64,000 bases of DNA. Origin: Chlorobaculum parvum NCIB 8327. Lineage in GTDB: Bacteria > Bacteroidota > Chlorobiia > Chlorobiales > Chlorobiaceae. The notes beneath the pieces were generated by a model. That model saw nothing but the letters and a program-made list of their open reading frames with translations. It had not been told where the DNA came from and searched no databases. The translations under genes and the position numbers were made by a program. The first letter of the stretch is position 1. Each line of letters opens with the position of its first letter. Location of the stretch: contig NC_011027.1 of NCBI RefSeq assembly GCF_000020505.1, forward strand, positions 666,001-730,000, written 5' to 3'. Positions 29,721-36,084 of this stretch are shown piece by piece.

Positions 29721-30947
29721 TTACTCCGAGGCGGAGGCGAGCAACATGTCGATTTCTCGGAAGGGAAAACCGGTCAGTTCAGCGAGGACTTTTTTTGTGA
29801 CGTAGCCTTTGTAAAGGTAGGCGCCTTTTCTGAGGCTATGACTTTTCCAGAGGATTTCGGCGATGGTCTGGTGCTCTTTTAGTTTCTGGAGGAATGGAAG
29901 CAGCGTGTTGGTCAGGGCGTAGGTTGCGGTTTTGGCAACGGCTGACGGGATGTTCGGCACGCAGTAGTGGGTGACGCCGTGCTTGACGTAAATCGGGTTG
30001 GTGTGCGTCGTATGTCTGCTGGTGCCGAAGCAGGGGCTCTGGTCGATGGAGACGTCGATGATGACCGACCCGGGCTTCATGGTTTTGACCACCTGTTCAC
30101 TCACCAGCGGTTTGCTCAGTTTCTGCTTCGGACTGAGTGCACCGATCATTACATCCGAAATGCGGGCAAGCTCGGCGATGTAGTGGTCGTTGGCAATAGC
30201 CGTCACCAGATGCCGGTTGAAAAACGCTTCGAACCGGCGTAACCGGTTGATCTCCTTGTCGATAACCGTCACCTGCGCACCGAGACCAAGCGCGTCCTGC
30301 GCAGCGAACAGGCCGACCGTTCCGGCTCCGATGATGGTGACGTGAGCGGGGGGGACGCCCGCGATGCCGCCAAGCAGAATGCCGCTGCCGCCATAGCCGG
30401 TTTCGAGATATTTTGCCGCGGTTTGGATGGCGAGGGAGCCTGCGATTTCGCTCAGCGTCCGCACGATGGGCAGTTCGCCGTCCCGCGTTTCGATGAACTC
30501 GAAGCCGATCGCCGTGATGTTCTTGTCGCTCAGCGTCTTGAGCATCTGGTGAGTGACCGTACCAAGATGCACTGCCGAAATCAGAATCTGTCCTGGCTGG
30601 AACAGCGCCATCTCCTCCGGCTGCGGCGGCGAAACCTTGACGATGACGTTCGCTTCTTCGTACAACTCTTCAGGCGACGAGGCGATCACTGCTCCGGCTT
30701 CGGCGTAGTCGTGGTCATGAAAGTTGCAGAAAATGCCCGCCTTGCTTTCGATGATGACCCTGATGCCCTGTTCGGTCAGAATCTGTGCACCTGCCGGTGA
30801 AAGCGCAACCCTCCGTTCATCCTGTGCTCGCTCTCGTGGAATGGCGATGGCGATGCTCATCGTTTTTTCCGGCTTGATCAGCCAGCGTTCGAGCGTTTTT
30901 ACTCCGAGTTCAAATTCGAGCGTTCCCAGGTCGGATGAATAGCCCAT
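29721..30947 (-). CDS. ald: alanine dehydrogenase/PntA-family protein, divergent copy
   Basis: A 408-aa member of the alanine dehydrogenase/transhydrogenase family, longer and more divergent than the second copy at 57.3 kb. Residues 1-29 are an extra segment before the canonical start (IAIPRERAQDERRVALSPAG). The active-site lysine (VIVKVSPP) and histidine (SAVHLGTV) are present, and the NAD fold is VTIIGAGTVGLFAAQDALG. It reversibly converts pyruvate, ammonia and NADH to alanine if active. It converges with crtH, 16 bases apart. Confidence 0.82.
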   Translation of the reverse strand: MGYSSDLGTLEFELGVKTLERWLIKPEKTMSIAIAIPRERAQDERRVALSPAGAQILTEQGIRVIIESKAGIFCNFHDHDYAEAGAVIASSPEELYEEANVIVKVSPPQPEEMALFQPGQILISAVHLGTVTHQMLKTLSDKNITAIGFEFIETRDGELPIVRTLSEIAGSLAIQTAAKYLETGYGGSGILLGGIAGVPPAHVTIIGAGTVGLFAAQDALGLGAQVTVIDKEINRLRRFEAFFNRHLVTAIANDHYIAELARISDVMIGALSPKQKLSKPLVSEQVVKTMKPGSVIIDVSIDQSPCFGTSRHTTHTNPIYVKHGVTHYCVPNIPSAVAKTATYALTNTLLPFLQKLKEHQTIAEILWKSHSLRKGAYLYKGYVTKKVLAELTGFPFREIDMLLASASE

Positions 30948-31046
30948 CGGTCTTAGGTGTGGATTGCATTACATAAATCAGTCACCGCTTTGGTGAGGAT
31001 CGGGAGCAACCCGTCGGCAGCTCCCGAATTCTGTCAGGCAGAGGTC

Positions 31047-31721
31047 TTACTTCGATTTGATCGGCACCCGTTCGATGGTTTCCTGCGGCCCATGGGACGG
31101 GCAGGTCGAGCCGGGCAGGTGGAAGCGTCCGCCGCTGACCGTGCAGAGCACACCTGAAGCCGCGTTGAGTGCACCTTTGGCAGCGTTGCCGGCCAAATCG
31201 AGCGGCATCTGCATGAACGGGAACGTCTCGACGAAATTGTTCATCGCCAGCAGCGAAGCCGGGCCGAGTCCGGCGGCGATCTTGCCGAGAGAATCAACCG
31301 GGTTGAGTCGTCCGGACTGCACTCTCGACACGATGCTCGAGACGCCCGACGGAAGCATCGTTGTTACGTTGTAGCCGATGGTCTGCGCGTAGGTGATGAA
31401 GCCCGGTACGTTCAAGCCGAGTACTGTTCTTCTGAATTTTTCAGCTCTGGTGAGCACCCTCACAGTGCCCTCTTTGATGATGGTGGTGCGGCAGGCGAGT
31501 CGTCCACCCTCAGCGAAAAGCTTGTCGGAAATGAAGGCTTTTTCGTCTTCGCCTGGCTGGGAAAGGCAATCGGCTCCTTCGAGCACATAAACGAAGCAGC
31601 TTTGGCAGATCGCGTTGCCGCCGCAGATGTAGCCGATATGGGCCTTGTTGTTCTTGGCGGTATTGAGCAGCAGATCACCGACCTGCGCTTCACACGGTTT
31701 GTCGTTGATGTAGATAGTCAT
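31047..31721 (-). CDS. csmJ: chlorosome envelope [2Fe-2S] protein CsmJ-like
   Basis: A 224-residue protein starting at MTIYINDKPCEAQVGD. The N-terminal 90 residues form an adrenodoxin-type ferredoxin domain with cluster ligands Cys33, Cys39, Cys42 and Cys77 (C-x5-C-x2-C-x34-C). The C-terminal part is hydrophobic and amphipathic (VPGFITYAQTIGYNVTTML, LLAMNNFVETFPFMQ). In C. tepidum CsmI, CsmJ and CsmX are such envelope proteins thought to control quenching or redox state of the chlorosome. CsmJ versus CsmI is chosen from length and neighbourhood. Confidence 0.87.
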   Translation of the reverse strand: MTIYINDKPCEAQVGDLLLNTAKNNKAHIGYICGGNAICQSCFVYVLEGADCLSQPGEDEKAFISDKLFAEGGRLACRTTIIKEGTVRVLTRAEKFRRTVLGLNVPGFITYAQTIGYNVTTMLPSGVSSIVSRVQSGRLNPVDSLGKIAAGLGPASLLAMNNFVETFPFMQMPLDLAGNAAKGALNAASGVLCTVSGGRFHLPGSTCPSHGPQETIERVPIKSK

Positions 31722-31856
31722 GGCCGTCTGATTTAAACATTGGTGATCGATCAGGAACAATCAGTTTGACTCGAAATTCTTCAGCTGATGTATAAAGAAA
31801 TATACTTCCGGTTCGATGGGTTTCAAAGGGGCAGGCCGTTCTGATTAAAAGCAAAA

Positions 31857-31889
31857 CCGGGCAAAGCCTACTGGATTGGCTTTGCCCGG
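31857..31889 (-). terminator. strong hairpin between csmX and csmJ
   Basis: CCGGGCAAAGCC (31857-31868) pairs perfectly with GGCTTTGCCCGG (31878-31889) over 9 bases. On the minus strand it is followed by TTTTGCTTTTAATC. It terminates csmX, so csmJ must have its own promoter or be reached by readthrough. Confidence 0.85.
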
Positions 31890-31896
31890 CGGTTGA

Positions 31897-32565
31897 TCAG
31901 TTGCAGGCCGCGCCGCTGTGTTCGTGCACTTTGAGTGCTTCGGGGGTCGCAAGTTTGCCGTGAGCGTTGACGCATGCTACTGTACCATCCACAGCCGTGA
32001 CGTCGCAACGGGCCTCGCCGTTTGTCTTTGCGGCTTCCGGCTTTGCTTCCGGACGGGCCAGGCCAAAAGCAGATTGTACTGCGTCGATCACCAGCTGAAT
32101 GGCATCACCGATTCCTTTGACCACATCGATGAGCAGCTCGACAGGCTCGATCGGGTGCCCGGTTGTTTCTCGCTGCGCCTGAAAGGCGATGGTGTCACGG
32201 AACTTGACCGCAGACTCCCAACCCATTTTACCCATGTACGCCGGAAGCTGGGTCGGATTGGTCAGGGTCATCCGCTTGGCTTCTTCGACGGTCGTCAGCA
32301 GGGTGATCTTGCCCGGTTTCTCTATGGTTGCCTGGCAGGCCATTCTTGTGCCCTCCTTGACGAGCGTGTCGGACAGCATCGCTTTTTCAGCGTCGCTCAT
32401 CGGTGAGAGCAGTTCGGCACCTTCAAGTATCTTCACATAACAGGTCTGGCAGATGGCGTTGCCGCCGCAGAAATATCCAATATGGCTGTGATTGGCTCGC
32501 GCCACATCAAGCAATCTATCCCCGGTTTGGGCCTGGCATTCTCTATCATTTATGACGATGTTCAT
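31897..32565 (-). CDS. csmX: chlorosome envelope [2Fe-2S] protein CsmX-like
   Basis: A 222-residue paralogue of CsmJ. The ferredoxin domain has Cys33, Cys39, Cys42 and Cys77 in the same spacing and the shared GYFCGGNAICQTC segment. The C-terminal domain is different from CsmJ after about residue 100: a helical amphipathic stretch (VELLIDVVKGIGDAIQLVI) and a tail with further cysteines (ARCDVTAVDGTVACVNAHG and a terminal AACN). The length matches CsmX of C. tepidum as I recall it. A 9-bp inverted repeat lies just before the start. Confidence 0.85.
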   Translation of the reverse strand: MNIVINDRECQAQTGDRLLDVARANHSHIGYFCGGNAICQTCYVKILEGAELLSPMSDAEKAMLSDTLVKEGTRMACQATIEKPGKITLLTTVEEAKRMTLTNPTQLPAYMGKMGWESAVKFRDTIAFQAQRETTGHPIEPVELLIDVVKGIGDAIQLVIDAVQSAFGLARPEAKPEAAKTNGEARCDVTAVDGTVACVNAHGKLATPEALKVHEHSGAACN

Positions 32566-32582
32566 GACTCTATGATTTTATG

Positions 32583-32609
32583 TTTATGTGGTGATTTTTG
32601 CCACATAAA
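32583..32609. promoter_or_regulatory. inverted repeat in the csmX leader
   Basis: TTTATGTGG (32583-32591) and CCACATAAA (32601-32609) are perfectly complementary over a 9-base spacer, ending 18 bases before the csmX ATG. It could be a regulator operator or a leader hairpin. Confidence 0.6.
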
Positions 32610-32752
32610 TACTAACTCTTCCGTTTCGGGAAATAGTTTCTACAATCGTTAAAATCGGACAGAATTTGGTGGTTTTTGACGCTTGGGTCGGGTGGCTGTT
32701 TGTGGGGGCTCGGCGTGCGGTGAGCTATTCCGAATTTGTCTTCGCCTCAATC

Positions 32753-32780
32753 AGGGCAGCCGCAAGGGACTGCCCCTACA
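32753..32780 (+). repeat. dispersed hairpin repeat ending in TGCCCCTACA, copy 1
   Basis: GGGCAG-CCGCAAGGGA-CTGCCC followed by CTACA. The same 3' arm TGCCCCTACA is seen at 36285-36294 and, inverted, at 58369-58378. It lies just past the mfd stop. Confidence 0.65.
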
Positions 32781-32790
32781 TTGTCCACGG

Positions 32791-36084
<3,294 letters not shown>

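Follow-up and report, generated by a model that had tools for sequence, protein, structure and literature searches.

Cysteine-bearing tails of the chlorosome iron-sulfur proteins CsmX and CsmJ in Chlorobaculum parvum and its relatives

It has long been asked how green sulfur bacteria switch off their antenna when air is present, and the known candidates are the iron-sulfur proteins of the chlorosome envelope and the chlorosome quinones. The window analyzed here is a 64,000-nucleotide stretch of Chlorobaculum parvum NCIB 8327, positions 666001-730000 of a genome of 2,289,249 bases in a single contig. It carries, in tandem, csmX and csmJ, whose products are already known iron-sulfur chlorosome proteins and had been correctly recognized as such in a preliminary description. 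The locus raises the question of what the C-terminal tails of these proteins, with cysteines beyond those that hold the cluster, might do.

The csmX-csmJ pair and its transcription signals

The genes and the signals around them are as follows.

31897-32565 (stop codon included), minus strand: csmX, 222 aa, from the Fer2 match, alignment and AlphaFold2 model
31047-31721 (stop codon included), minus strand: csmJ, 224 aa, from the Fer2 match, alignment and AlphaFold2 model
31857-31889, minus strand: hairpin 3' of csmX, intrinsic-terminator-like, followed on the minus strand by a T-rich run
30982-31027, minus strand: two stem-loops downstream of csmJ, a candidate terminator (z -3.6), with a poor T run
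31799-31826, minus strand: sigma-70-like promoter site before csmJ (TTGAAA, 16 nt, TATATT), between the hairpin and csmJ
32575-32604, minus strand: weak promoter-like site upstream of csmX, with 9 of 12 matches

On the minus strand csmX, starting at 32565, is followed after a gap of 175 nt by csmJ, whose stop codon occupies 31047-31049. ORF calls and translations confirmed the tandem arrangement between 31047 and 32565 that had been described. The ATG of csmJ is at 31721, and the TTG at 31760 in the ORF list is a mechanical over-extension. By reading, the long ORF upstream of csmX is presumably mfd, and the one downstream of csmJ we take to be the gene for alanine dehydrogenase. A third paralog, CsmI by reading, is encoded elsewhere in the genome (~843 kb). 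The same-strand order csmX then csmJ was found in 49 genomes, those with both genes on one fetched stretch. A phage or viral origin of the pair was rejected: there was no match to phages, and of 30 pattern matches to viral contigs none was confirmed. No RNA family reached its gathering score in 30000-33500.

The hairpin that had been noticed between the genes was confirmed at 31857-31889, with perfect 12-bp arms, a 9-nt loop, a folding energy of -26.1 kcal/mol and a z of -5.0; none of 200 shuffles was as good. Its stem begins at nt 8 past the csmX stop, and T occupies 8 of the next 12 nt. Thus csmX is followed by a stable GC-rich stem and a T run next to a stop codon, as in an intrinsic (rho-independent) terminator; the simple terminator scan had a loop limit of 8 and so left the hairpin unlisted. 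In comparisons with relatives, "genus" means the Chlorobaculum group (19 CsmX) and "outside" means 59 CsmX of Chlorobium, Pelodictyon and uncultured Chlorobiaceae. The csmX-csmJ hairpin was better than shuffles in 16 of 17 genus pairs and in 15 of the 32 from outside. From species to species the stem differs greatly in sequence yet stays paired, as expected for a terminator. The two genes had been called separately terminated. For csmX this is well supported by the hairpin and T run, but the part concerning csmJ depends on two stem-loops that are poorly followed by T.

Promoter-like sites of the kind before csmJ were present in 11 of 18 genus genomes and in none of 33 others. The spacer of this site, CCCATCGAACCGGAA, seems to be conserved to much the same degree as the hexamers in some ten genus genomes, and it could mark a regulator site. 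Upstream of csmX, at about 32600-32660, the genus has a conserved block, AGAAACTATTTCC ... GTTA, that is unlike the usual sigma-70 hexamers. The terminator-like hairpin of csmX and the promoter-like site of csmJ together uphold the earlier idea of two transcription units, so that the genes may be expressed separately, and a different stoichiometry of CsmX and CsmJ is possible.

A family of [2Fe-2S] proteins with a conserved helical segment

CsmX and CsmJ each have one PF00111 (Fer2) domain above the Pfam cut-off. In CsmX an adrenodoxin-like [2Fe-2S] domain (residues ~1-90) is followed by a helical segment (residues 92-166) and a tail predicted to be disordered; CsmJ has the same domain and helical segment, its tail contains Cys193 and Cys207, and its C-terminal motif is IERVPI. 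The cluster ligands are Cys33, 39, 42 and 77 in both. The claim that the two share identical ligand spacing was borne out, as C-x5-C-x2-C-x34-C was found in both and, unchanged, in 78/78 CsmX, 52/52 CsmJ, 34/34 CsmI and 12/12 sister-family proteins. Both proteins match adrenodoxin-type ferredoxins with solved structures in sequence, and fold comparison of CsmX led to the same group. The adrenodoxin/ISC-type [2Fe-2S] ferredoxins and the ferredoxin domain of NqrF thus have domain and fold in common with CsmX and CsmJ, but the latter score far under the NCBIfam cut-offs of those families, and the matches are limited to about the first 100 residues.

CsmX and CsmJ belong to a three-paralog set, CsmI, CsmJ and CsmX, each member being built of the four-cysteine [2Fe-2S] domain, the helical segment, which is conserved, and a tail that varies. 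In a family tree of 111 rows, taking every second CsmX and CsmJ, separate branches set off the X, J and I proteins, with support of 100/97, 100/99 and 100/99, respectively, and likewise the sister-family proteins (100/97 or better); the window species' rows fell inside the X and J groups. The paralog names are those in common use and in the preliminary description, and no match carried them as a label; the names CsmJ and CsmX are upheld in that each protein groups with its own paralog. CsmI has the ligand spacing of CsmX and CsmJ and a homologous helical segment, and its C-terminus, where seen, is LEKVTITV, resembling the IERV(T/P)I end of CsmJ; it differs from them in having a separate locus. 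In many Chlorobium-related genomes the CsmI-like proteins (e.g., L245, L247 and L257) are 327-391 aa long and end approximately in ...AKxLxR... rather than in LEKVTITVQP. The end motif [ILV][ED].[VI][TKPR]I was present in 41/52 CsmJ, 5/9 CsmI and 0/78 CsmX; P[VI]K[VI]E, a similar end, closes several sister-family proteins, as though CsmX had lost the motif. Two sister-family genomes, G086 and G087, have a tandem ferredoxin pair of their own (L203/L211 and L207), which in the tree stands apart from the X/J pair.

The genome that we take to be that of C. tepidum TLS (G019) has the gene pair in the order seen in the window, and its proteins are 68% (CsmX) and 80% (CsmJ) identical to those of the window. 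It also has the tail cysteines and the terminal Cys-Asn, with four cysteines in the CsmX tail versus three in the window species. The host genome has two PF02043 (Bac_chlorC) matches and one PF11098 (Chlorosome_CsmC) match above cut-off, from which we conclude that the host makes chlorosomes. Passages of PMC3175400 place ten Csm proteins, including CsmI, CsmJ and CsmX, in the C. tepidum chlorosome envelope.

CsmJ and CsmX had been said to part ways past residue 100. When the stretch 96-170 was compared by itself, profile against profile with hhalign, it aligned with probabilities of 97.0% (X-I), 96.7% (J-I) and 81.0% (X-J), and BLAST alignments between paralogs extend to residues 165-169. AlphaFold2 drew helices over most of 92-166 in both proteins, with low confidence after ~170. 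Because the profiles align and the modeled helices run through this region, the proteins part near residues 165-170, not at 100. Tail pLDDT was 37-50 for CsmX and ~47-57 for CsmJ, in which residues 168-196 were partly drawn as a low-confidence helix; the cluster loop of CsmX (residues 32-38) was also of low confidence. The helical segment had no clear similarity to the sister-family homologs (hhalign 2.7-15.7%), and kinship with either PF02043 protein (CsmA/CsmE) or with the PF11098 one (CsmC) found no support, at hhalign values of ≤0.9%. Given this lack of clear similarity, an anchoring role for the segment is putative.

Cysteines in the tails of CsmX and CsmJ

The two tails are as follows; for counting, the tail was taken as everything after residue 160.

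31900-32067, minus strand: CsmX variable tail, residues 167-222, with Cys187, Cys198 and Cys221
31050-31223, minus strand: CsmJ tail, residues 167-224, with Cys193 and Cys207

The CsmX tail cysteines that had been pointed out, in ARCDV, TVACVN and AACN, are present as residues 187, 198 and 221. They are not special to CsmX, as had been supposed: the CsmJ tail, whose cysteines went unmentioned, has at least one in 51 of 52 genomes (Cys193 in 44/52 and Cys207 in 37/52). Cysteine makes up 3.4% of CsmJ tail residues; in CsmX 72 of 78 tails have it, at 8.0% of residues. The background is 1.1% in 30 window ORFs of ≥300 aa, these being six-frame ORFs not checked as genes, and residues 81-160 of the same proteins hold only 14 cysteines in 6,240 residues of X and 3 in 4,160 of J (0.07-0.22%). 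CsmI tails have none, in 0/34 proteins or, under a wider filter, in 0/48, and the 12 sister-family homologs likewise have none. Tail cysteine is thus enriched in CsmX and CsmJ and not in the CsmI or sister-family tails examined. Fisher's test for tail cysteine by paralog gave p ~3e-35, a value that takes no account of relatedness and should be read as a guide only. At least five changes of the trait were needed on the tree, and a single origin in the ancestor of CsmX and CsmJ found neither support nor rejection at a p-AU of 0.50. The pattern is paralog-specific; we found nothing on it in the literature searched, which does not establish its absence from print.

Are the cysteines conserved among relatives? 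Within the genus Cys221 was present in 19/19 CsmX, Cys198 in 17/19 and Cys187 in 12/19. Outside it Cys221 and Cys187 were each found in 0/59, and the terminal Cys-Asn, present in 19/19 genus proteins, in 0/59; the Cys198 column has a cysteine in 34/59, in a loosely aligned region, and other positions are used besides. Six of the 78 CsmX, in two groups, have no tail cysteine (G021, G028, G038, G050, G063 and G081), so that it is dispensable in those groups. Conservation, which had been named as the check on the CsmX cysteines, therefore holds for cysteine richness and in part for the Cys198 column, but not for Cys187 and Cys221, and exact positions mostly change between genera. As for other C-termini, 26 of the 78 CsmX, none in the genus, end in Ala-Ala (often IAA). 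The degradation tags of the ssrA type have a similar Ala-Ala end.

These shifts between groups, the six tails without cysteine and the poor conservation of the tails generally are what would be seen if the tails were loosely constrained and their cysteines, having no role, drifted in and out. CsmI tails are also variable, however, yet hold no cysteine in 5,438 residues, and sister-family tails hold none in 1,101. The terminal Cys-Asn is invariant in the genus, and CC or CxC occurs in 53 of the 78 CsmX tails, above a shuffled mean of 31.8 and a maximum of 43 (500 shuffles). We therefore consider it unlikely that the cysteines simply drift.

The overrepresentation of CC and CxC would also suit tails that act as ligands of zinc, copper or iron, whether to store the metal, to assemble clusters or to give the tail its shape. 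Chlorobium-related genomes offer a case in point. Where CsmX is 173-177 aa long, csmJ was found in 0/21 genomes, the best CsmJ E-values there being those of paralogs; with longer CsmX it was found in 51/57 (some genomes are incomplete). CC and CxC abound in many of these short tails, often in patterns like SCCC..ExC.C. The short CsmX rows lie in one branch of the tree (support 98/70), together with two 179-aa CsmX from csmJ-bearing genomes, and since they share this moderately supported branch the loss of csmJ may have been a single event. Against metal binding, the number and spacing of cysteines vary from group to group, and the three in the window species' CsmX are spread across 35 residues. 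Metal binding thus seems to us a minority prospect, if a slightly better one than aimless drift.

Alternatively, the tail cysteines might form disulfides among CsmX, CsmJ or their copies and so fix neighbors in the envelope. Reducing conditions are to be expected in the cytoplasm of a strict anaerobe, which counts against such bonds, and many genomes without csmJ keep a cysteine-rich CsmX. On the other side, three further envelope proteins of this genome, the pair matching PF02043 and the one matching PF11098, are, by reading, without cysteine, and CsmX and CsmJ share one compartment according to passages of PMC3175400. Candidate csmB and csmH genes close to a PF02043 gene were dropped from this cysteine comparison, as NCBIfam did not bear them out. 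On balance we doubt that disulfide fixation accounts for the tails, and rank it no higher than drift.

A possible thiol layer in the redox response of the antenna

The explanation that we propose is that an envelope-held Fe-S cluster helps to govern quenching and that the tail thiols are a second layer of control; we judge its chances to be about even. The helical segment would anchor each protein in the envelope's lipid monolayer. The redox state of the cluster would shift with oxygen or light, and by influencing the redox state of the chlorosome quinones the cluster would help to set whether they quench excitation. The flexible tail thiols of X and J would form the second, oxidation-sensitive layer, by way of a thiol radical or a disulfide, and would act much like the FMO cysteines below the baseplate.

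In the 2013 Biochemistry papers of Li et al. and Johnson et al., CsmI and CsmJ are reported to share in controlling energy transfer in a light-dependent way, and the cluster of CsmX is said to have resisted EPR study. Because CsmI, reportedly part of this control, has no tail cysteine, the case for a role of the cysteine tails in it is weakened; and because the tails are disordered or of low confidence in the models, these do not allow any thiol to be located close to a pigment. FMO, for its part, is a pigment-binding protein that has no Fe-S cluster and whose fold is other than that of CsmX and CsmJ. It is in the same energy path, and its quenching is cysteine-based, passages of PMC8452559 attributing energy quenching to redox-active cysteines. 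Energy transfer in the chlorosome is extremely sensitive to oxidation state, as stated in a portion of PMC3415949. The portions of the literature examined report no thiol redox change in CsmX or CsmJ.

A more specific form of the proposal is that the disordered, cysteine-rich tail is a second redox element beside the cluster, which arose in Chlorobiaceae on X and J only and has been kept by composition more than by position. Through its thiols the envelope would then sense oxygen or (poly)sulfide and adjust energy flow, in parallel to the cysteine switch of FMO. We offer this form as speculation that is more likely wrong than right.

Should the tails have no function, what remains is a routine annotation of known genes. 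More telling than the half-right claim made for CsmX is that cysteine tails are common to X and J and missing from CsmI and the sister-family proteins examined. Such a paralog-specific tail could be tested simply with mutants of C. tepidum, a species that passages of PMC12214013 describe as naturally transformable. The tails of CsmX and CsmJ might be oxygen-sensitive through their extra cysteines.
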